Assembly (NCBI GenBank): GCA_023382335.1
Contig: JAMCPM010000011.1
Location: 129,229 to 193,228, forward strand
Direction of reading: 5' to 3'
DNA: 64,000 bases
From: Actinomycetota bacterium
GTDB lineage: Bacteria > Actinomycetota > Thermoleophilia > BMS3ABIN01
How positions within the stretch are numbered: position 1 is the first letter of the stretch; every line of letters starts with the position of its first letter. This document shows, one piece after another, positions 946 through 23,260 of the stretch. Under the pieces are notes generated by a model. The model was not told the origin of the DNA. It ran no database searches and saw only the letters and a program-made list of their open reading frames with translations. The position numbers and the translations under genes are program-made.

Positions 946-1791
946 CTAACGGATCGCTTCGTTCATGCTGCCGCTTCTAAAACCCTCGAGATCGACAGTG
1001 ACGTATTTATAGCCAAGCGCCTTGAGGGCGGTGACGACCTCATCGCGCCGCGGCTGCGAGGCCAGACCGGGCAGATCGGTCGTAGCGGCTTCGATGCGGG
1101 CGGTATCTCCATGGTCCCTGACCCTGAACTGGCTCAGGCCCAGACTTCGCAGGAATTCCTCTGCCTGCTCGACCCGCCGCAGCCCTCCGGATGTGATGGT
1201 GCTGCCGTAGGGGAAACGCGAAGAAAGGCATGCCTGGGCTGGCTTGTCCCAATTGCTCAAGCCCAGTTCGCGGGCCAACAGGCGGACCTGCTCCTTGGTC
1301 GCTCCGATCTTCGCCAGCGGGTGCAGGACGCCCGCCTCATCGCCGGCCCTGATGCCCGGGCGGAAGTCGCCGCGGTCTTCGGCGTTGACACCATCGGCCA
1401 TCACCGCGATGCTTTCTGCCGCCGCCAGCTTTCCGAGCTTCAGCCAGAGCTCCGACTTGCAGTGGTAACATCTGTCGCTGGAATTGTCACAAAAATCTTC
1501 ATTGTCAAGCTCACGGGTCTCGACGACCGCATGCCTGACTCCCAGCGATGTTGCCAGCTGCCGGGCCTGGGCCAGCTCACTTTCAGGCAGCGTCTCCGAA
1601 TCCGCGGTGACGGCCAGGACGTTGCCTTTGCCCAGCGCCTCCGCAGCTGCGGCAACTACCACGGATGAGTCGACACCGCCGGAAAAGGCGACCAGCAGCC
1701 GGCCGCAAGGTTCGAGCTCGGACAGCAGTCCCCGCAGCAGCCGCTTTATTTCAGATCTTTTGTTTTCCTGTAAAGTCTCGCCCATCAGCAT
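946..1791 (-). CDS. larE: LarE-family ATP-dependent sulfur transferase
   Basis: PP-loop ATP pyrophosphatase of the LarE family. LarE adenylates a substrate carboxylate and donates sulfur, in the lactate racemase pathway by sacrificing its own cysteine. The PP-loop signature is LVAFSGGVDSS. A RCYHCK motif follows, then KPAQACLSSRFPYG, which holds the conserved cysteine in the position of the sacrificial Cys. The C-terminal text YKYVTVDLEGFRSGSMNE is diagnostic. It is the last gene of the sulfur operon, 16 nt after the JAMM gene. The open frame extends to a TTG at 1830 inside the JAMM gene; ATG 1791 or 1785 is more likely. No larA, larB or larC is in view, so a role other than nickel-pincer cofactor synthesis is possible. 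Confidence 0.85.
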   Translation of the reverse strand: MLMGETLQENKRSEIKRLLRGLLSELEPCGRLLVAFSGGVDSSVVVAAAAEALGKGNVLAVTADSETLPESELAQARQLATSLGVRHAVVETRELDNEDFCDNSSDRCYHCKSELWLKLGKLAAAESIAVMADGVNAEDRGDFRPGIRAGDEAGVLHPLAKIGATKEQVRLLARELGLSNWDKPAQACLSSRFPYGSTITSGGLRRVEQAEEFLRSLGLSQFRVRDHGDTARIEAATTDLPGLASQPRRDEVVTALKALGYKYVTVDLEGFRSGSMNEAIR

Positions 1792-1807
1792 TCCATATTC
1801 CCGATCA

Positions 1808-2218
1808 TCAATCTTCCATGAAGATGTCAATCTCCCGGGTGTTTCCTTCCACGATACGGAAAGCGTGGCACTCCGGTTCAGAGTTCATGAGTGAAACGAT
1901 GAGATAGGCCGCGTCCGGATAAAAAGCCAGTTCCCGGTCATGGTCGGAAGGAAACGCCGGGGAGTGGGGGTGGGAGTGAAAGATCGCGACCAGATCGAGA
2001 GCCTCGCGCTCCATCTCGTCAAAAACGCGGAACTGCTCTTCGGAGTCCATCTGATAGAAGACCTCGCTGTGCTCGGCATTCTCCATCAGAAATACCCTGA
2101 GCACGCGGCCCTCGCTGTTTCCGGCAAGAACGCCGCAGGCTTCCTCGGGACGGCATGCAAGGGCGTGACCGATGATGGTCTCCAGCTGCGCTGGTGACAG
2201 CCGCAGGCTTTCGGCCAT
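1808..2218 (-). CDS. JAMM/Mov34 metalloprotease (Mec/QbsD-like)
   Basis: A 136-residue JAB1/MPN zinc metallopeptidase. In the known bacterial systems such enzymes either release cysteine from a sulfur carrier (Mec with CysO in Mycobacterium) or trim extra residues from the carrier C-terminus (QbsD on QbsE). The JAMM motif is complete: an upstream Glu in RPEEACGVLAG, then HSHPHSPAFPSDHD, giving the two His and the Asp zinc ligands. The ATG overlaps the stop of the upstream E1 gene (TGATG), showing translational coupling. Because the carrier encoded at 3024-3281 has residues after its Gly-Gly, processing is a plausible job here in addition to cysteine release. Confidence 0.87.
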   Translation of the reverse strand: MAESLRLSPAQLETIIGHALACRPEEACGVLAGNSEGRVLRVFLMENAEHSEVFYQMDSEEQFRVFDEMEREALDLVAIFHSHPHSPAFPSDHDRELAFYPDAAYLIVSLMNSEPECHAFRIVEGNTREIDIFMED

Positions 2219-3036
2219 CAGGAAGTGCCGGGCGCCTGCGTCTCGCAGGTATAGGCGTACTCGATCAGCTCGGTGATGGTGGGCTTCTCGCCACATACGG
2301 GGCACTTGGGATTGCGAGGCGCATTAACCTCATGGAATCGCAACTCCTCGGCATCGAACTGTAGCAGCCGGTTGAACAGCGGCGTGCCGACTCCGGTGAC
2401 GATCTTCAGGACCTCGGTGGCCTGGAGCGTGCCCACGACGCCGGCGACCGCGCCCAGAACGCCGGCTTCGGCACAGCTGGGAACGGTGCCCGGCGGGGGT
2501 GGCTCCTCAAAAACGCAACGGTAACAGGCGGTCTCGCCACCGTGGATACTCATTATCAGGCCCATGAACCTGAGGATGCCTCCTTCGACCAGGTACTTCT
2601 GCTTCATGACGCAGGCGTCATTGATCAGGTATCTGGTCGGAAAATTGTCAACGCCGTCGACGACGATGTCATACTTGTCGATCAGGGGGAGGATGTTGTC
2701 CTTGTGCAGGCGCTCATGATAGACGTCAACCTCGATGTGGGGGTTGATCTGCTTCATGGTCTCGCTGGCGCTGTGGACCTTCGGTTTCTCGATGTCCGCG
2801 GTGGCGTGGATGACCTGGCGCTGCAGATTGGTCACGTCGACGACGTCATCCTCGATGACGCCGATACGGCCGATTCCGGCAGCCGCCAGATAAAGCAGCA
2901 CCGGCGACCCGAGCCCGCCTGCCCCGACGACCAGCACCCTGGCGTCCTTGAGCTTCTGCTGGCCTGTGCCGCCTACCTCAGTCAGGATTATATGCCGCGA
3001 ATAACGCAGGATTTCTTCGTCGCTTAGATTAAACAA
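2218..3036 (-). CDS. moeB: MoeB/ThiF-family E1-like adenylyltransferase
   Basis: A 272-residue E1-like enzyme that adenylates the C-terminal glycine of a ubiquitin-fold sulfur carrier, preparing it for thiocarboxylation. It shows the nucleotide-binding GAGGLGSPVLLYLAAAG, the DNFPTRYLINDAC segment, zinc cysteine pairs CYRC and CPVC, and the conserved Cys in PSCAEAGVLG. There is no rhodanese domain, so sulfur must come from a separate donor; the TusA and LarE proteins of the same operon are candidates. It starts with TTG at 3036, with GGAGG five bases upstream, inside the 3' end of the carrier gene. The symbol reflects family only; the true partner is probably the neighbouring carrier rather than MoaD. 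Confidence 0.88.
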   Translation of the reverse strand: MFNLSDEEILRYSRHIILTEVGGTGQQKLKDARVLVVGAGGLGSPVLLYLAAAGIGRIGVIEDDVVDVTNLQRQVIHATADIEKPKVHSASETMKQINPHIEVDVYHERLHKDNILPLIDKYDIVVDGVDNFPTRYLINDACVMKQKYLVEGGILRFMGLIMSIHGGETACYRCVFEEPPPPGTVPSCAEAGVLGAVAGVVGTLQATEVLKIVTGVGTPLFNRLLQFDAEELRFHEVNAPRNPKCPVCGEKPTITELIEYAYTCETQAPGTS

Positions 3037-3281
3037 GATCCTCCACCCATGAAATAAAGGAAGTCGATCCGGTCGCCCTTATTGATGGGAATATTCTCAA
3101 AATCGCGCCTGTTGAGGACGTTACCGTTGATACGCACGTTGGCGTAGGCTGCTTTTTCACCCTGGGATTCGAGCAGGGAGCGAATGTCCCTGGCGCCGTG
3201 ATAATCAAGCGGTTTGCCCTGAACGACGAGCTCCAGGCATTCCTGGCTGCGGCTCGCCTCATTATCTTTCAATGATAGCAT
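3024..3281 (-). CDS. ThiS/MoaD/CysO-like sulfur carrier with masked C-terminus
   Basis: An 85-residue beta-grasp sulfur carrier. The ThiS-like core begins at LELVVQGKPLDYHGARDIRSLLE and continues through YANVRINGNVLNRRDFENIPINKGDRI. The usual di-glycine terminus is followed by extra residues: the protein ends FMGGGSCLI. Carriers must expose Gly-Gly before adenylation, so this looks like a pro-form needing proteolysis, as QbsE does with its Cys-Phe tail. ATG 3281 is preceded by AAAGGAGG at ideal spacing and is preferred over ATG 3320, giving a short non-conserved leader before the fold. It overlaps the moeB-like start by 13 bases. The CysO role is inferred from the adjacent cysteine synthase, E1 and JAMM genes. 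Confidence 0.85.
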   Translation of the reverse strand: MLSLKDNEASRSQECLELVVQGKPLDYHGARDIRSLLESQGEKAAYANVRINGNVLNRRDFENIPINKGDRIDFLYFMGGGSCLI

Positions 3282-3340
3282 CCGCGCCTCCTTTTCTGAA
3301 TTCGAACCGAATTCGCTCATTTTTTATCAGCCACCACCCA

Positions 3341-3580
3341 TTATCCACCCGCTTTTTTGACGTAGATCTCGGCAAAGCCTTCCCTGTCTTCTATTCCAAG
3401 AACCTGGTGGCCGTTGCCCCGAACCCATTGAGGCAGGTCGTTCTTGCTTACGGGGTCATCGGTCAGTACCTTGACGATGCCGCCGCCTCCAAGCTGCTCG
3501 AGGGCCAGAGCGGTCTTCACCGACGGCATCGGGCACTTGAGCCCGCGGGCGTCGAGCAGAACATCTTCCTTCACATCCAT
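3341..3580 (-). CDS. tusA: TusA/SirA-like sulfur relay protein
   Basis: A 79-residue TusA-family protein that carries persulfide sulfur on a single conserved cysteine. The CPxP motif is present as LDARGLKCPMPSVKTALAL. The fold continues through GGIVKVLTDDPVSKNDLPQW and ends in EIYVKKAGG. ATG 3580 is supported by GGAGG four bases upstream; the open frame runs further 5' to 3601. It sits between the cysteine synthase and the carrier gene, so it may pass sulfur from a desulfurase to the adenylated carrier. That function is inferred. A second TusA domain is fused to the Rrf2 regulator at 16360-17022. Confidence 0.9.
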   Translation of the reverse strand: MDVKEDVLLDARGLKCPMPSVKTALALEQLGGGGIVKVLTDDPVSKNDLPQWVRGNGHQVLGIEDREGFAEIYVKKAGG

Positions 3581-3625
3581 TAATCCTCCACTTCGGGACA
3601 CGTCAAACGATTGACGGCGCCTGTA

Positions 3626-4585
3626 TCAGGCATTTCCAAATAGCTGTGTGGTCAGATAACGCTCACCTGTATCCGGCAGGATCACCACGAACATCTTGCC
3701 TTTGCTCGAAGGCCGCCTGGCGATCGAAAGAGCAGCAAATGCGGCCGATCCTGACGATATGCCACAGAGTATACCTTCCTCGGAAGCCAGGCGCCTCGCC
3801 GTCAGCTCCGCATCTTCGTTGGACACCTGATAGATCTCATCGTAAATAGCGGTATTGAGTACATCGGGAACGAATCCCGCGCCGATTCCCTGAATGCGGT
3901 GCGGCCCGGGGTCGCCGCCGGAGAGGACCGGCGATGCCTTGGGCTCGACCGCCACCAGCTGCACGGAAGGCTTTCGCTCCTTTAGCACCTCGCCGGCGCC
4001 GGTGATGGTTCCTCCGGTGCCGACTCCGGCGACCAGGAAATCAACCGCGCCTTCGGTATCACGCCAGATCTCTTCGGCGGTCGTGCGGCGGTGGACTTCT
4101 GGATTCTCCGGATTCTTGAACTGCTGCGGCACATAGGCGTCGCCATAATCTTCCGCCAGCGCATCGGCCTTTTCGACAGCGCCCCTCATGCCTTCAGGCC
4201 CGGGGGTCAGGACCAGCTCGGCCCCATACGCCTTGAGCAGCATGCGGCGCTCGATGCTCATCGTCTCCGGCATCGTCAGTATCAATTTGTATCCACGGGT
4301 GGCGCAGACGAGAGCCAGGGCGATACCGGTGTTGCCGCTGGTGGGCTCGATGATGACTGATTTGCCAGGCGTGATCGCGCCTTCCTTCTCGGCTGCCTCG
4401 ATCATGGCCAGCCCGATCCGGTCCTTGACGCTGCCGCCTGGATTGAAGCTCTCAAGTTTCCCGATGATGTCCACATCTAGCCCGGCAGAAAGCTTGCCGA
4501 GCCGGACCATGGGAGTGTTTCCTATAAGTTCTGAAAGATTATTGGCTATGTTCATTTTTATTCCGGCTATTGAGGTAATTGACAT
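3626..4585 (-). CDS. cysK: PLP-dependent cysteine synthase (CysK/CysM family)
   Basis: Makes cysteine from O-acetylserine (CysK) or O-phosphoserine (CysM type) using sulfide or a thiocarboxylated carrier. The PLP lysine lies in [13 protein letters not shown], the substrate loop is [12 protein letters not shown], and the phosphate-binding glycine stretch is [11 protein letters not shown]. The C-terminal [12 protein letters not shown] is typical. At 319 residues it has normal length. ATG 4585 has GGAGGAG upstream; a second ATG at 4555 matches the usual family start. Its place in an operon with a CysO-like carrier, E1 and JAMM protease suggests carrier-dependent use as in Mycobacterium CysM. The nearby cysE argues that O-acetylserine is the acceptor. 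Sequence alone cannot separate the two. Confidence 0.92.
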
Positions 4586-4614
4586 CCTACAGCTCCTCCC
4601 GCCCCCGCGGTTAG

Positions 4615-5055
4615 TTAAATATAGTACATTTCTTCAGCGCGCTCCCGCATCAGGCTCTCCTTGTATGCGAGATCAGCGATATTCGCCGCCCCTAAAACAC
4701 CCTCGAGATTATTCTTTACGTCAAACCAGACGTCTTTCATGATGCAGCGGTCGATCTTGTTGCAGGCGGCGCCCCCGGTACACGCCGACGGCGAAACATT
4801 GCCGTCTAGCACTTCGACGACGTCTAGCACGCTTATGTCTTCGGGAAGTTTCTTGAAGCTAAAGCCGCCTCTGACACCCCGATGGCTGTTTAGGATGCCA
4901 GCCTTGCGGAGACTAGAAAATAGCTGCTCGAGAAACTGTAGGGGGATCTCACGCCGCGCAGCGATGTCGGCAATCGGTACCGGTTGCCCTTCATTATGCT
5001 GCGCCAGCTCAACAAGGGCCCGGACCGCATACCTGCTCTTTGCTGAAATGTTCAT
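4615..5055 (-). CDS. Rrf2-family regulator with IscR-type cysteines
   Basis: A 146-residue winged-helix repressor of the Rrf2 family (IscR, CymR, NsrR). The start [18 protein letters not shown] and the helix-turn-helix region [19 protein letters not shown] are typical. Three cysteines with spacing C-x5-C-x5-C ([13 protein letters not shown], about residues 91-103) match the IscR pattern for an Fe-S cluster; CymR lacks these. ATG 5055 has AGGAG at good spacing, while the open frame extends to 5148 across the promoter. As first gene of the cysteine/sulfur operon it probably autoregulates and senses Fe-S or sulfur status. The operator was not identified with certainty. Confidence 0.88.
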
Positions 5056-5104
5056 AGGTTCTCCTATATGTCCATAAATTTGATAGGTCTTATTGGATTT
5101 ATGA

Positions 5105-5133
5105 ATCATAATAGCATGGATAGGAATTGTCAA
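5105..5133 (-). promoter_or_regulatory. Sigma-70 promoter of the cysteine/sulfur operon
   Basis: Reading the minus strand, a perfect -35 TTGACA (5133-5128) is followed by exactly 17 bases and a -10 TATGAT (5110-5105). Transcription would start near 5098, leaving a leader of about 43 nt before the Rrf2 ATG at 5055. AT-rich repeats around it, such as CCTAT and ATAGG near 5060-5080, could be the Rrf2 operator, but this is not certain. Confidence 0.8.
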
Positions 5134-5176
5134 GATGTTTTCCGGCAATCATTGATATTCTTTATTGGTTCAGCTG

Positions 5177-5593
5177 ATGCGACCGTTTGAACTTATGGAA
5201 CATACGGCCGACATCGGCGTCCGCGCCTTTGGTTCCTCCGAGAAGGAAGTCTTCCAGAACGCGGCTGCCGGTATGTTCAGCCTCATCGTAGATCCGGGGC
5301 TGGTCCGGGACGTTGAGGGATTCAGCGTCAAGGCCGAGGCGGAGGATCATGAGGGACTGCTGGTCGCGTGGCTCAACGAGCTGCTCTATCTCCAGGACAG
5401 TCGCGATCTGCTGTTGAAGAGATTTGAAATCGGGAGATTAGGGGAAACCACACTCGAGGCCATGGTCTTTGGCGAGCCTGTCGACCCCGGCCGGCATAAG
5501 CTTATGAGCGATATCAAGGCCGCCACCTACCACATGCTCAAACTTGAGCATTCTTCAGGTGGATGGACCGCGGAGGTCATCTTCGATGTCTGA
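5177..5593 (+). CDS. Archease
   Basis: A 138-residue archease, the accessory protein that speeds turnover and guanylylation of the RNA ligase RtcB. The N-terminal MRPFELMEHTADIGVRAFG is the family signature, with the metal-binding Asp in HTADIG. VAWLNELLYL and the C-terminal KAATYHMLKLE, WTAEVIFDV are also typical. ATG 5177 matches the family start; the open frame begins at TTG 5165. No clear Shine-Dalgarno site precedes it. The gene overlaps rtcB by 8 nt, the standard archease-rtcB pair. Confidence 0.92.
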   Translation: MRPFELMEHTADIGVRAFGSSEKEVFQNAAAGMFSLIVDPGLVRDVEGFSVKAEAEDHEGLLVAWLNELLYLQDSRDLLLKRFEIGRLGETTLEAMVFGEPVDPGRHKLMSDIKAATYHMLKLEHSSGGWTAEVIFDV

Positions 5594-7055
5594 TGTGAGG
5601 AAGCAGGGCGCACGGCAGATCGCGCATCTGCGCGAAATCAGCCCCTGGTGCTGGGAGATTCCCCAAACCGGAGAAATGCGGGTTCCTGGAAGAGTATTCT
5701 CTGACAGCGAGTTTGTCACCAGGGCCGGACAGGAAAACGCGCTCGAACAGGTGGCGAACGTCGCCTGCCTGCCCGGGATCGAGATGGCCTCGATGGCGAT
5801 GCCGGACATCCATTGGGGCTACGGCTTCGCCATTGGCGGCGTGGCCGCCTTCCGCCTGAAGGACGGCATAATCTCCCCGGGAGGCGTCGGTTACGACATC
5901 GCCTGCGGCGTCCGCCTCATCCGCAGTAACCTCGTTGCTTCCGAGATGGAAAAAGCCGTCCCCGGCCTGGTCCACGAACTGTCACGCAGCGTTCCCGCCG
6001 GTGTAGGCCGCCACGGAGACGTCCGCCTGGGACACCGCGAGCTGGACAGCCTCATGACCAAAGGTGTCCCCTGGCTGATCTCGCAGGGATACGGCTGGCC
6101 GGACGATATCGAGGCGATCGAGGATGGGGGTGTGCTCGATGGCGCCAACCCGGAGCTGATCAGCCCTCGCGCCCGCGAACGCGGTTTTGCCCAGTCGGGT
6201 ACGCTGGGAGCCGGCAATCATTTTCTGGAAGTCCAGAGGGTCGAACAGATCTTTGACGAGGCCGCGGCCTGGGCTTTTGGCATCTTTTCCGGGCAGCTTT
6301 GCATCATGGTTCACTCGGGCTCCCGGGGGCTCGGCCATCAGGTCTGCACGGAATACGTCAAGACCATGGGCTCCGCGGCCGCACGCGCCGGCATCAACCT
6401 TCCCGACAGGCAACTGGCCTGCGCGCCGATAAACAGCCCCGAAGGCCGCGACTACTACGCCGCCATGGCCTGCGCGGTCAATTTTGCCAGGGGAAACCGC
6501 CAGGTGATGACGCATCTTGTCCGGCAGTCATGTGAGCATATCTTCAAGTCCTCAGCAGAGAAGCTGGGCCTGGACCTCGTCTACGACGTTTCTCACAACG
6601 TCGCCAAGTTCGAGGAGCACGAGACCCCGGGCGGCAGAAAGATACTTTGCATCCATCGCAAGGGCGCCACGCGGTCATTCCCCGCCGGGCACGCCGGCAT
6701 ACCGGAAAAATACCGCGCTGTCGGACAACCGGTGATCGTTCCCGGTGATATGGGCACGGCCTCGTATCTGCTGAAGGGCACCTCGACGGCGATGGCCCAG
6801 AGCTTCGGCTCCACATGCCATGGCGCCGGCAGGGTAATGGGCCGGCGCGCCGCCAAAAGGGCGATTCAGGGACATGAACTAAAAGCGAGGCTCGAAGCCC
6901 AGGGAATCACGATCAGCGCGGGGCGCACCTCGACACTGGCTGAAGAAGCGCCGGAAGCATACAAGGACATTGATAAGGTTGTGGAAGTCTGCCATCAGGC
7001 GGGGCTGTCCAAAAAGGTCGCCCGGCTGCGGCCGATGGGCGTGGTGAAAGGTTAA
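5586..7055 (+). CDS. rtcB: RNA-splicing ligase RtcB
   Basis: GTP- and Mn2+-dependent ligase joining RNA 2',3'-cyclic phosphate or 3'-phosphate ends to 5'-OH ends; in bacteria it serves RNA repair. Visible motifs are MPDIHWGYGFAIGG, SPGGVGYDIACGVR with the metal-binding Asp and Cys, LGAGNHFLEVQ, VHSGSRGLGHQ, and KGATRSFPAGH, whose neighbouring GSTCHGAGR region holds the guanylylated His. At 489 residues it is full length. ATG 5586 lies inside the archease 3' end, with GGAGG about nine bases upstream; the frame is open from 5544. Co-transcribed with archease. Confidence 0.95.
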   Translation: MSDVRKQGARQIAHLREISPWCWEIPQTGEMRVPGRVFSDSEFVTRAGQENALEQVANVACLPGIEMASMAMPDIHWGYGFAIGGVAAFRLKDGIISPGGVGYDIACGVRLIRSNLVASEMEKAVPGLVHELSRSVPAGVGRHGDVRLGHRELDSLMTKGVPWLISQGYGWPDDIEAIEDGGVLDGANPELISPRARERGFAQSGTLGAGNHFLEVQRVEQIFDEAAAWAFGIFSGQLCIMVHSGSRGLGHQVCTEYVKTMGSAAARAGINLPDRQLACAPINSPEGRDYYAAMACAVNFARGNRQVMTHLVRQSCEHIFKSSAEKLGLDLVYDVSHNVAKFEEHETPGGRKILCIHRKGATRSFPAGHAGIPEKYRAVGQPVIVPGDMGTASYLLKGTSTAMAQSFGSTCHGAGRVMGRRAAKRAIQGHELKARLEAQGITISAGRTSTLAEEAPEAYKDIDKVVEVCHQAGLSKKVARLRPMGVVKG

Positions 7056-7094: not shown

Positions 7095-7910
7095 CTAGAG
7101 CAGGCTGGGCTTTCTCAGGTCCTGGCAACCACAGTCTCCATCTTCGGCGGCGTCGATGGCTTCCAGGATTATACGCGACTGGATCGCGGCGTCATCCTCG
7201 AAAATCTCCTTCAGCAACCGGTGCTCCCAATCGCGGACAACGCCCTCGGCGAAATTGACCACCAGGTAGAGGGCTGCGTAGCAGGCGCCGATATCGCGTG
7301 AGAGCCACACTTCCGGACACATGCTCTGGCCGATGATGTCACCGTATGTCTGCATCATCCGGATCTCGGCCCGGCTCTCGAAACGCGGGCCTTCGGTGAC
7401 GACACAGGTGCCGCGCCCGAACACGCGCCCCCTGGCATGGTTTGCAGCAGCATCCGCCAGGCTGCCGGCCAGGCGCTGGCAGACCGGGTCGCGCATGATC
7501 AGAAGGTTACCGCCGGCAATCAGACCTTGATTTCGATCAGTGGTCAAGTCAACGAAGTCGTCCGGGATGACGATATCGCGGGGATCGAGCAGAGGATTGA
7601 TGCTGCCGACCCCTGCTTCGGAAAAAATGTTTTTGACTCCCGCCTGGTGCAGCACCCAGAAGACCTGCTGCGAGGCCTCACCGCGCGTGACTCCCCGGCG
7701 CCAGCCGTGCAGCCTGACCGTCAGGCATCGGCGTCCGGCGGCGGTCTCAAAGATTGAAAACGGTGGAGAGGCGCCATGGGGCGTTTCAAAGATGAGGTCC
7801 TTCCGGATCACCCTGGCTCCGGCGCCGGCAGCATCGGGGAAGTCACTGCCGTAAGTTCCCGAGCCGCCGATAAAAGCCCAGGCCACCTCTGGCACCGCGC
7901 CCGCGCTCAC
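7095..7910 (-). CDS. mtnP: MTA phosphorylase / purine nucleoside phosphorylase family
   Basis: A 271-residue trimeric phosphorylase of the MTAP/MTIP family, which cleaves 5'-methylthioadenosine or 6-oxopurine nucleosides with phosphate. The N-terminal AFIGGSGTYG, EAGVGSINPLLDPRDIVIPDDFVD and CVVTEGPRFESRAEIRMM segments are typical. QSMCPEVWLSRDIGACYA matches the substrate-binding GMTxxPE region but with changes. LHGW replaces the usual RHG, so substrate preference is uncertain; the mtnP symbol is provisional. It starts at GTG 7910, overlapping the upstream stop (GTGA), so it is translated with the M23-like gene. It is convergent with rtcB. Confidence 0.8.
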   Translation of the reverse strand: MSAGAVPEVAWAFIGGSGTYGSDFPDAAGAGARVIRKDLIFETPHGASPPFSIFETAAGRRCLTVRLHGWRRGVTRGEASQQVFWVLHQAGVKNIFSEAGVGSINPLLDPRDIVIPDDFVDLTTDRNQGLIAGGNLLIMRDPVCQRLAGSLADAAANHARGRVFGRGTCVVTEGPRFESRAEIRMMQTYGDIIGQSMCPEVWLSRDIGACYAALYLVVNFAEGVVRDWEHRLLKEIFEDDAAIQSRIILEAIDAAEDGDCGCQDLRKPSLL

Positions 7911-16176: not shown

Positions 16177-16321
16177 TACGGCAGAACGCGGCCTGCAACT
16201 TTCTGGCACCCGGCTAGATACTCCCGGACGTCCCTTCTTTCCTCGCATATTTCTGTTACTGGCCGATCGGACGGCTGTGTTTGACCCGATTCCGTGCCGG
16301 GTAAACCTAGTTGTATTAATG

Positions 16322-16350
16322 TTGACTCCACAATTACACAATAATAAAAT
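16322..16350 (+). promoter_or_regulatory. Sigma-70 promoter of the Rrf2-TusA/isc operon, predicted leaderless
   Basis: TTGACT at 16322-16327, a 17-base spacer and TAAAAT at 16345-16350. Initiation about seven bases later falls at 16357, where TTG-ATG start codons stand, and there is no Shine-Dalgarno sequence. The transcript should therefore start at or next to the start codon. Confidence 0.78.
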
Positions 16351-16359
16351 ACGGCCTTG

Positions 16360-17022
16360 ATGCTCATTTCCTCCAAAAGTGAATATGGCCTTCGCGCCCT
16401 TCTTGATATCGCCCTCAACGCCGATGGGGCGCCGGTAAACCGCGCCGATATCGCCAAGAGGCAGCAGATCCCGCTACCTTACCTGACCCAGGTCCTGCGA
16501 CAGCTCGTCAACGGCGGCCTGCTGACCAGCAACCGCGGGCCTTCGGGCGGCTACTCCCTCAGCCTTGATCCTGACGATGTCAGTATCCTCGACGTCGTGA
16601 CCCTGCTCCAGGGGCCGGTCGCACCGGCAGGATGTGCTGGAGCCGGCGCCGCCGGAGATTGCAATCACCTTGAAAACTGCGGCCTGGCCGGCGTCTGGTC
16701 GGAGCTCAAGAGCAGCAGCGAAAACGTGCTTGCCCAGACCACGATCAGGGACATCCTCTCCGGGAACCATGCGGCGGATGCCGGACCCGAGCTTGAGGCC
16801 TCGATGAAGCTCGATTGCATCGGCGATCCCTGCCCACTGCCAATCGTGAATATCGCGCAGACGATGCGCTCGCTGAAACCGGGCCAGGTCCTGGAGGTTT
16901 GGGCAGACGATGAAGGGGCAAAGGCAGACATACCAGCCTGGTGCATGGGAACCGGCAACGATTTCATCCGCCGGGAAGAATACGGCGACCAGATGAAGTT
17001 CCTGATCCGCAAGCTCATTTAG
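16360..17022 (+). CDS. Rrf2 regulator fused to a TusA sulfur-carrier domain
   Basis: A 220-residue two-domain protein. Residues ~1-135 are an Rrf2 winged helix (MLISSKSEYGLRALLDIAL, IAKRQQIPLPYLTQVLRQL, NRGPSGGYSL). Three cysteines spaced C-x8-C-x5-C (first Cys in APAGCAG, last in LENCG) match the NsrR arrangement of an Fe-S ligand set. Residues ~145-220 are a TusA domain with the CPxP motif in LDCIGDPCPLPIVNIAQ. A regulator joined to a persulfide carrier suggests direct sensing of sulfur supply; this is inference. It heads the operon with the cysteine desulfurase and IscU, the expected target of an isc regulator. Translation may instead begin at TTG 16357. Confidence 0.87.
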   Translation: MLISSKSEYGLRALLDIALNADGAPVNRADIAKRQQIPLPYLTQVLRQLVNGGLLTSNRGPSGGYSLSLDPDDVSILDVVTLLQGPVAPAGCAGAGAAGDCNHLENCGLAGVWSELKSSSENVLAQTTIRDILSGNHAADAGPELEASMKLDCIGDPCPLPIVNIAQTMRSLKPGQVLEVWADDEGAKADIPAWCMGTGNDFIRREEYGDQMKFLIRKLI

Positions 17023-17082: not shown

Positions 17083-18321
17083 ATGGATAGAGCGATATTC
17101 CTCGATAATGCGGCAACTACCCGTACCGATCCCGAGGTCCTCGAGGCCATGGGCGAATGGCTGGGGGACAACTTCGGCAGCCCCGCTACCCTTTACGCCT
17201 TCGGCTCGCAGGCAAAGCAGGCCATCGAGGCCGCCCGCCAGCACGTCGCCGATCTGATCGGCTCCGACCAGAAGGACGTTTATTTCACCAGCGGAGCCAC
17301 CGAAGCCAACAACTGGGCCATCAAGGGTGTCGCAGAAGCTCTGGAGGAAAAAGGAAAGCACATCATCACCAACCAGGCGGAGCATCATTCCATCCTCATG
17401 CCCTGCGGCTATCTGGAGAAGAAAGGCTGGGATGTCACTTACCTGCCCGTCGACGGCGACGGCCTGGTAGATCCCGCTGACGTGGAAAAAGCTATCCGCG
17501 AGGACACGGTACTGGTCACCATGGTTCACGCCAACCACGAGATCGGCACCATACAGCCCATCGCTGAGATCGGCGCCATCACGCGGGAAAAGGGTGTCTA
17601 TCTGCACGTCAACGCCGCACAGTCCGTGGGCCATGTCCCCGTCGACGTCGCGGCCATGTCGTGCGACCTCCTGTCGATTTCCGGACACAAATTTTACGGT
17701 CCCAAGGGCGTGGGCGCACTATATGTTAAAAGAGGCGTGCGGATCGTCCCGCTTCTCCACGGTGGCGGCCAGGAGAAAAAGCGCCGCGCCGGCACACATA
17801 ACGTCCCCGGCATCGTCGGTCTCGGCAAGGCGTCGGAACTGGCCAGGAAGAACCTGGCCTCGGAAGCGGAGAGGCTGACGACACTAAGGGATTACATCAT
17901 TGGGAAGATCGAAAGCAATATGGAAGACATCCGCCTGAACGGCCACCGGACCAAACGCCTTCCAAACAACGTCAACGTCTCTATCGAAGGCATCGAGGGC
18001 GAGTCGATCATGCTATCGCTCTCCTACCCGACGGCAGAGAACGCCCGCCCGGTCTTTGTTTCAACCGGTTCCGCCTGCGTATCCGGCACCCTGGAGCCTT
18101 CACACATCCTGCTGGCGCTGGGTTTGCCGGCCGAACTGGCGCATGGCTCGGTCCGCATCAGCCTGTCGAGGCACGACACCCGTGAGGATGCCGATTACGC
18201 CCTGGATTCCCTGTTTGCGGTTTCTGAAAGGCTGAGAAGTATGTCACCGGTATACAAGCGCGGATCGAAGCAGTGTGCCAGCGGTTCCGGCGAAGGCTGT
18301 GATTGCGAGGCTGCCAGCTGA
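17083..18321 (+). CDS. iscS: Cysteine desulfurase (IscS/NifS)
   Basis: PLP enzyme that takes sulfur from cysteine and hands it as persulfide to IscU and TusA-type carriers. Visible motifs are FLDNAATTRTDPEV, FTSGATEANNWAIKG, the Schiff-base lysine in SISGHKFYGPKGVGALY, and the catalytic loop STGSACVSGTLEPSHILLALG. The PLP-ring contact normally reads HxDAxQ; here it is HVNAAQSVG, with Asn (codon AAC) replacing Asp. The C-terminus carries extra cysteines (KQCASGSGEGCDCEAAS). ATG 17083 is preferred, though GTG 17074 is in frame. It lies 60 nt after the Rrf2-TusA gene and 100 nt before iscU. Confidence 0.93.
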   Translation: MDRAIFLDNAATTRTDPEVLEAMGEWLGDNFGSPATLYAFGSQAKQAIEAARQHVADLIGSDQKDVYFTSGATEANNWAIKGVAEALEEKGKHIITNQAEHHSILMPCGYLEKKGWDVTYLPVDGDGLVDPADVEKAIREDTVLVTMVHANHEIGTIQPIAEIGAITREKGVYLHVNAAQSVGHVPVDVAAMSCDLLSISGHKFYGPKGVGALYVKRGVRIVPLLHGGGQEKKRRAGTHNVPGIVGLGKASELARKNLASEAERLTTLRDYIIGKIESNMEDIRLNGHRTKRLPNNVNVSIEGIEGESIMLSLSYPTAENARPVFVSTGSACVSGTLEPSHILLALGLPAELAHGSVRISLSRHDTREDADYALDSLFAVSERLRSMSPVYKRGSKQCASGSGEGCDCEAAS

Positions 18322-18421: not shown

Positions 18422-18799
18422 ATGTATACAGAACAGGTGATGGATCACTTCCAAAACCCCCGTAACATGGGAGAAGTCGATAACCCTGATGGAGTCGGAG
18501 AGGTGGGGAATCCTCAATGCGGGGACGTAATGCGCATCACCATCAAGGTAGATGCCGGCGAGCGCATCGAGGACGTCAAGTTCAAGACGCTGGGATGCGG
18601 CGCCGCTATTGCTACCAGCAGCATGGTGACCGAGCTGGCCAAGGGAAAGACACTCGAGGAGGCACAGGAAATATCCAAGAAAGCCGTTGCTGACGCCCTG
18701 GGAGGCTTGCCGCCGCAGAAAATGCACTGCTCGAACCTTGCCTCCGACGGACTTAAAAAAGCCATCGAGGATTATCGTTCGAAACATCCTGCAAAATGA
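18422..18799 (+). CDS. iscU: Fe-S cluster scaffold protein IscU
   Basis: A 125-residue U-type scaffold on which Fe-S clusters are assembled. The three ligand cysteines are in NPQCGDVMRI, KTLGCGAAIATSS and KMHCSNLASDG, and the start MYTEQVMDHFQNPRN is typical of the anaerobic IscU/NifU-N group. ATG 18422 has GGAGG five bases upstream, so the in-frame TTG at 18410 is ignored. It ends the isc operon. HscA/HscB and ferredoxin genes are absent, giving a minimal ISC set as in many anaerobes. Confidence 0.95.
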   Translation: MYTEQVMDHFQNPRNMGEVDNPDGVGEVGNPQCGDVMRITIKVDAGERIEDVKFKTLGCGAAIATSSMVTELAKGKTLEEAQEISKKAVADALGGLPPQKMHCSNLASDGLKKAIEDYRSKHPAK

Positions 18800-22564: not shown

Positions 22565-23260
22565 ATGATCCTTTGGGGAAAAATAAGTCAGTTCTCGGTC
22601 TTCATGGTACTGCAACTACTGGCCAGCTACCGAAAATCGGGACTCCTGGAAATCGAGGACAGGGAAGAACGGGCTATTATTTATCTCAAGGAAGGCTTTA
22701 TCGAAGCTGTATCAGTGCCGCGTTCCGATCATCTACTGGGCGCCCGCCTGATCAAAGCCGGTTTGCTGACGCCGACCGGTCTGCGCAAGATAATCCTCTC
22801 GTCCGCCTCACGGGACAAGAAAGAATTTCTGGGCATCACCCTGATGAAATCGGAGATTATCGACAAGGAAGAGATCGTCAAGGTCATTGCCGAACAGGCC
22901 TATGAGAATACTCTCGAACTTTCAAATTGGGTCGAAGGCACTTTTAAATTCGTGGTTCCCAGAAAGCCGGCAGTCTTTCCGCTCTCCCCGCACATCAACG
23001 TGCAGCACCTGCTGCTCGAGACCAGCCGGAGGCTTGATGAAGGCCAGCGGCCTACCAAAGCCAAACTTGCTCTTCCGGCTGATGAGCTGTGTTCTTCCTG
23101 TACCTCAAATTGCACTGAGGAACAAAAAGATAAGTATCTCAAGGACGGCATCTGCCTCTGGCGCAATATGCCGGTGCTGGTGAGAGAAGCGATCTTCACT
23201 CCCGGAACCGATGAGGCTGTCGAGCCTGAAGAGTTTTTCTCGGATATCCCCTTCCTCTAA
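22565..23260 (+). CDS. DUF4388 (PATAN-like) domain protein
   Basis: A 231-residue cytosolic protein opening with a DUF4388 domain (GKISQFSVFMVLQLLASYRKSGLLEI, then IIYLKEGFIEAVSVPRSDHLLGARLIKAGLLT in the first 75 residues). Such domains occur in adaptor proteins of bacterial signalling, motility and polarity systems. A four-cysteine group follows near residue 180 (ELCSSCTSNCTE and GICLW), perhaps a metal site. The exact function is unknown. It follows the c-di-GMP genes, separated by a terminator. Confidence 0.7.
   Translation: MILWGKISQFSVFMVLQLLASYRKSGLLEIEDREERAIIYLKEGFIEAVSVPRSDHLLGARLIKAGLLTPTGLRKIILSSASRDKKEFLGITLMKSEIIDKEEIVKVIAEQAYENTLELSNWVEGTFKFVVPRKPAVFPLSPHINVQHLLLETSRRLDEGQRPTKAKLALPADELCSSCTSNCTEEQKDKYLKDGICLWRNMPVLVREAIFTPGTDEAVEPEEFFSDIPFL

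Follow-up and report, generated by a model that had tools for sequence, protein, structure and literature searches.

An Rrf2 Regulator Fused to a TusA Domain Heads an iscS-iscU Operon in an Uncultured Actinobacterial Family

Results

The Locus and Its Fusion Protein

In the window, that is, the whole 64,000-nucleotide stretch of DNA analyzed here, an ATG at position 16360 opens a single frame of 220 amino acids plus stop (16360–17022, + strand) that joins an Rrf2 regulator to a TusA domain. Both Pfam domains are complete within this frame, as the sequence-only reading of the locus had stated, and 16 full-length copies, including the one in the window, are found in the family. The Rrf2 winged-helix domain spans residues 3–133 (16366–16758, +), a linker follows at residues 134–149 (16759–16806, +), and the TusA domain occupies residues 150–218 (16807–17013, +). 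The cysteines C92-x8-C101-x5-C107 (16633–16680, +) represent, together with Glu8, candidate Fe-S ligands. In the TusA part there is a CPLP motif (16831–16842, +) with Cys158 as the predicted persulfide carrier, and a second cysteine, Cys195, within the sequence DIPAWC (16942–16944, +). The two cysteine motifs described earlier, C-x8-C-x5-C and CPxP, are therefore both intact.

Membership in the two families is clear. The front part scored 121 bits against the Rrf2 model PF02082 (cut-off 30, E = 4e-35, residues 3–133) and 121 against TIGR00738 (cut-off 73.3), and the back part scored 77 bits against the TusA model PF01206 (cut-off 28.6, E = 8e-22, residues 150–218). On the other hand, all scores against equivalog models fell below their cut-offs: 86 bits versus 207.6 for IscR (TIGR02010; also 76 versus 275 with PRK10857), 74 versus 195 for CymR (NF047409), 31 versus 182 for NsrR (NF008240) and 46 versus 78 for the TusA of tRNA thiolation (NF001423). 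The AlphaFold2 model of the fusion is of moderate quality (mean pLDDT 71), with low confidence in the cysteine loop (pLDDT <50, about 30 for residues 91–110). In Foldseek searches, the front of the model matched the winged-helix fold of CymR, IscR, RsrR, and NsrR, while its back matched the TusA of the E. coli IscS–TusA complex with an rmsd of 2.0 Å (3lvj_C and 3lvk_B, TMt 0.84–0.85, being 0.84 for 3lvj_C).

The next gene, iscS (17083–18321, +), encodes a NifS/IscS-type cysteine desulfurase according to Pfam and NCBIfam, with the active-site loop STGSACVSG intact, and is followed by iscU (18422–18799, +), which encodes a NifU-type scaffold scoring above the cut-off of TIGR03419 and having the three scaffold cysteines. 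In NCBIfam terms, the two products are NifS/IscS-like and clostridial NifU-like, respectively. None of hscA, fdx, and iscA lies directly behind iscS-iscU, where a gene for a HAMP-GAF-HD-domain protein comes next. The earlier placement of the fusion at the head of an isc operon thus holds as far as iscS and iscU follow it, with "isc operon" meaning these two genes only. Downstream of the operon, a DUF4388 protein with a cysteine cluster (CSSCTSNCTEEQKDKYLKDGIC) is encoded at 22565–23260 (+) and is conserved in the family.

The SufBCD core (PF01458) was not found in the 99%-complete window genome, G000, but was present in each of 14 control genomes. Two further desulfurase-like genes are present in the window genome. 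One of these desulfurases forms the C-terminal portion of a molybdopterin oxidoreductase of 1186 amino acids, whose gene is followed by one for an EgtD-like methyltransferase (G000:C8:134500–142500, being L163, 2093–5650 and 5660–6694; L164 in G017), an arrangement that matches the published one of the metallopterin-dependent ergothioneine synthase (PMC9516567). Considering the lack of SufBCD and the nature of one of the two other desulfurase-like genes, Fe-S assembly in this organism probably relies mainly on iscSU.

Promoter and Candidate Operator

The only promoter-like match upstream of the fusion is TTGACT-17-TAAAAT (16322–16350, +), which agrees at 10 of 12 positions and is conserved in the orthologues. 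Since the ATG begins 9 nt past the −10 box, the mRNA is probably leaderless or nearly so. A candidate operator, the 25-bp imperfect dyad AATGTTGACTCCACAATTACACAAT (16318–16342), covers the −35 box and the spacer. In the g3 species (L016), the dyad reads AATGTTGACT-N5-AGTCTACATT, which we take to resemble the GACT...AGTC core of IscR type-1 sites.

Calculated on a profile built from 17 upstream regions, the dyad symmetry was greater than in 2000 of 2000 column permutations, a comparison that cannot tell operator constraint from promoter constraint. However, the conserved right half of the dyad is located within the spacer, so that the promoter alone does not explain it. In a pattern search of eight genomes, the fusion promoter was the sole match with zero or one mismatch, and each genome had zero to three sites with two mismatches, compared with zero to one for the reversed control pattern. 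A wider regulon is thus unsupported and, with essentially one match per genome, the predicted target of the fusion is its own operon alone. A related element was found upstream of the unfused sister operons described below.

Distribution and Conservation

Among the 19 genomes of the family to which the window genome belongs, 16 have the full fusion, one (G017) has the Rrf2 regulator without TusA, and two incomplete ones have no fusion. The latter, G003 and G006, also lack an iscS match, and a real loss in them is unsupported. The fusion is therefore retained at 16 of 17 isc loci, in seven genera of one uncultured actinobacterial family, in the order metG, tatD, fusion, iscS, iscU, and HD-domain gene. 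The records bearing it are labeled as uncultured Actinomycetota (Thermoleophilia, Gaiellales, or Actinomycetes) and Bacterium BMS3Abin01. The full-length copies in these 16 genomes, with orthologues at 60–92% identity in the seven genera, rule out an artefact of sequencing or a frameshift.

We did not find the fusion among about 280 other genomes of the same class or in the remainder of a 396-genome sample of the phylum. A scan of 84,980 species with two peptide patterns, which distant fusions could escape, returned the fusions of the family and two Theionarchaeal genes (L050 and L051); these were rejected as fusions, each being a stand-alone TusA adjoining a DsrE-like gene. No Rrf2–TusA or Rrf2–SirA fusion was found in the open-access literature, to which the search was confined. 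The protein belongs to known families, with a joined architecture that is apparently unreported in that literature.

Cys92, Cys101, Cys107, Glu8, Gln44, and the wing Arg59 of the Rrf2 part, as well as Cys153, Cys158, and Cys195 of the TusA part, are invariant in 16 of 16 aligned fusions. An equivalent of Cys195 is missing from the dsrE-linked (AWA) and cysK-linked (QWV or AWV) stand-alone TusAs of the family. Pairwise Nei-Gojobori estimates, in which dS is moderate to saturated, gave low dN for both parts of the fusion, mostly lower for TusA than for Rrf2, indicating strong purifying selection on the TusA part. One outcome that the sequence-only reading had named as refuting its proposal was a CPxP cysteine not conserved in fused relatives; the proposal survives this check, with Cys158 present in 16 of 16 fusions and a low dN in the TusA part. 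For the same reasons (low dN and invariant cysteines), we rule out that the TusA part is a decayed remnant. The linker, in turn, differs in length among orthologues, with the TusA part beginning anywhere from residue 150 to 169, which argues against a rigid coupling of the two domains.

Origin and Loss of the Fusion

Three genomes from another class of the phylum (G306, G185, and G334) have an unfused operon in the order Rrf2, cysteine desulfurase, DsrE-like protein (PF13686), and TusA, and their Rrf2s are the nearest relatives of the fusion Rrf2. In the Rrf2 tree, fused and unfused sister-operon proteins form one clade (support 100/99), with the Rrf2 paralogues of cysK operons apart. The fused TusA domains also form one clade (95/88), on the dsrE-linked side of the TusA tree and apart from the cysK-operon TusAs, although with 72 columns this tree is too short to name the closest stand-alone TusA. 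Proteins that are operon partners in the sister lineages are consequently one polypeptide in this family, an arrangement that usually signals a functional link.

The Rrf2 of G017 nests within the fused clade (99/93), so the absence of TusA in this genome is a secondary loss and not an ancestral state. The TusA domain was cleanly deleted there (L086:2014–2502, −; L022, G017:C12), while Rrf2, the promoter element, and iscS stayed in place. Only four TusA genes are present in G017, against five in most of its genus mates, with no replacement stand-alone copy. The retention of the regulator without TusA means that any TusA input can be lost. The window genome has five TusA domains, four of them stand-alone, and a carrier role is therefore not unique to the fusion.

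About 11 kb upstream of the fusion, an operon at 946–5148 (−) encodes a second Rrf2 (C-x5-C-x5-C), CysK, a TusA without the second cysteine, a ThiS-like protein ending in GGGSCLI, a MoeB/ThiF-type E1, a JAB/desampylase-like protease, and LarE. It looks like an operon for thiocarboxylate-based cysteine synthesis, presumably of the CysO/Mec+ or HcyS/HcyD type, in which the protease may trim the ThiS-like tail; its Rrf2–cysK pairing recalls CymR–CysK. Divergent from this operon, an archease-like protein (identified by eye) and then an RtcB RNA ligase are encoded at 5165–7055 (+). A pair formed by a TusA of the AWA variant and a DsrE-like protein (PF13686) is found about 30 kb upstream of the fusion (L085, about 7100–7900; G000:C11, 116.4–117.2 kb).

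Discussion

Isc regulators are generally regarded as sensors of cluster status or iron, and the balance between desulfurase sulfur supply and Fe-S demand is largely explained by protein competition. The fusion described here may bring both matters together in one chain. The ligands of the IscR cluster include a histidine; residue 110 of the fusion is Ala, Val, or Asp, and a histidine ligand as in IscR is not evident. Glu8 sits in register with Asp8 of NsrR, which is a cluster ligand along with Cys93, Cys99, and Cys105 (PMC9338935). In RisR of Myxococcus xanthus, with cysteines 92, 102, and 108, the cluster-bound form represses isc from a site over the promoter hexamers (PMC9973013). By analogy with these relatives, the ligand set suggests that the Rrf2 domain of the fusion may bind an Fe-S cluster. 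Operon context and the conserved cysteines, for their part, are consistent with the acceptance of persulfide from IscS.

Based on our data, we tentatively favor the reading that the fusion is an Fe-S-binding local autoregulator of iscSU, to which the docking of TusA on IscS adds a sulfur-supply input. The Rrf2 dimer on the dyad would block RNA polymerase while the Fe-S cluster is present. The TusA domain would dock on IscS and take persulfide on Cys158, or IscU would displace it from IscS, and the binding of IscS or the persulfidation may alter repressor activity. Transcription of iscSU would then track cluster status plus the balance of sulfur supply against IscU demand. Competition of TusA and IscU for IscS is known from E. 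coli (PMC11446229). The short variable linker suggests that the coupling would occur by tethering, recruitment, or local sulfur transfer (e.g., to the Rrf2 cysteines), rather than by rigid allostery. Most of the conserved features can be explained by such a model, in which Fe-S status and the supply of sulfur from IscS are the two inputs, and the sulfur link is independently supported by the sister Rrf2-iscS-dsrE-tusA operons and by the match of the modeled TusA to that of the IscS–TusA complex.

A direct sensor of sulfur supply, as the sequence-only reading had proposed, remains a good hypothesis, but the candidate Fe-S ligands kept in the Rrf2 part form a complete set, which makes an Fe-S input at least as likely. 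In its complete form, with persulfide passing from IscS to the tethered TusA and on to the Rrf2 cysteines or cluster so as to set iscSU transcription, we regard the one-chain sensor of sulfur flux as possible, though on the doubtful side.

The flexible linker and the loss in G017 make a passive bifunctional protein the strongest rival, and one that we consider unlikely. The TusA domain would be an ordinary IscS-linked carrier that serves other pathways and is attached to the regulator only for co-expression and fixed stoichiometry, with DNA binding unaffected. This would agree with the retention of all carrier features in the TusA domain, with tusA being a separate operon gene in the sister lineages, with the variation of the linker, and with a G017 regulator that persists without TusA. 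Nevertheless, four stand-alone TusAs are still present in the genome, and tethering to a regulator, usually a protein of low abundance, would be an awkward route of supply, yet the fusion was kept at nearly all isc loci of the seven genera.

Somewhat harder to sustain is a sequestration without sulfur chemistry, in which free IscS bound to TusA would keep the repressor off (or on) DNA until displaced by IscU, Cys158 serving for docking only, much as CymR of B. subtilis acts with CysK. In its favor, TusA and IscU compete for IscS (PMC11446229), the complex of CymR with O-acetylserine thiol-lyase binds DNA when cysteine is present (PMC9338935), and IscS is encoded by the very next gene; but the strict conservation of Cys153, Cys158, and Cys195 exceeds the needs of simple docking, and we find this explanation quite improbable. 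Finally, TusA could supply the Rrf2 domain with IscS or sulfur for fast building or repair of its cluster, and the fusion would then sense cluster status, like IscR and RisR. Maturation of the known Rrf2 Fe-S regulators requires no tethered TusA, and the G017 relative lacks one; we hold such an aid to maturation very unlikely, even with Glu8 and the three cysteines invariant, no SufBCD to mature the regulator, and a RisR whose maturation depends on ISC or SUF (PMC9973013).

As a regulator joined to a known type of IscS sulfur acceptor, the fusion permits a direct test of whether desulfurase output is read at the promoter of the cell's own Fe-S operon. Its age is sufficient for it to occur throughout a family, where it is placed on what appears to be the principal route of Fe-S assembly. 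The single predicted operator makes the circuit simple to rebuild, and the TusA-less regulator of G017 offers a ready-made natural comparison protein.

Among known systems, E. coli IscR is likewise the first gene of an isc operon and has the Rrf2 fold, and its type-1 consensus presumably shares a GACT-type half site with the candidate site of the fusion. In contrast, the cysteine spacing differs, the fusion scores 86 versus 208 bits at the IscR equivalog cut-off, and IscR, without TusA, regulates many genes. The TusA of the E. coli IscS–TusA complex (3lvj and 3lvk) shares with the fused domain the fold, the CPxP carrier cysteine, and the IscS partner, encoded next door in the fusion locus, whereas the fused domain is covalently joined to a DNA-binding domain, has two extra invariant cysteines, and falls below the TusA equivalog cut-off. 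The sister operons also have the desulfurase next, the TusA signature Cys-x4-CPMP...WC, and a similar promoter element, but TusA is separate at the operon end, DsrE is present, and IscU is absent from the operon. CymR–CysK of Bacillus subtilis is comparable in that an Rrf2 regulator depends for DNA binding on contact with an enzyme of sulfur metabolism; its partner is, however, separate and a cysteine synthase instead of a desulfurase, and there is neither TusA nor Fe-S cluster.

RisR (Rrf2 group IS6) is also an Rrf2 regulator of the isc operon with a site overlapping the promoter hexamers, and its cysteines 92/102/108 compare with 92/101/107 in the fusion, but no TusA domain is described for it and it governs suf in addition to isc (PMC9973013). 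SoxR and sHdrR of Hyphomicrobium (PMC10451225, PMC12423496) and CstR of Staphylococcus aureus (PMC5480029) are repressors that respond to sulfane sulfur or persulfide. Unlike the fusion, they have ArsR- or CsoR-type folds and control sulfur oxidation or detoxification, and TusA, if involved, is a separate protein. In the case of SoxR, it has been suggested that the sulfur may come from TusA, and this passage of sulfur between separate proteins is the nearest published idea (PMC10451225). If the one-chain sensor proves true, it would represent the cis version of a transfer from TusA to a regulator that has so far been proposed only between separate proteins.
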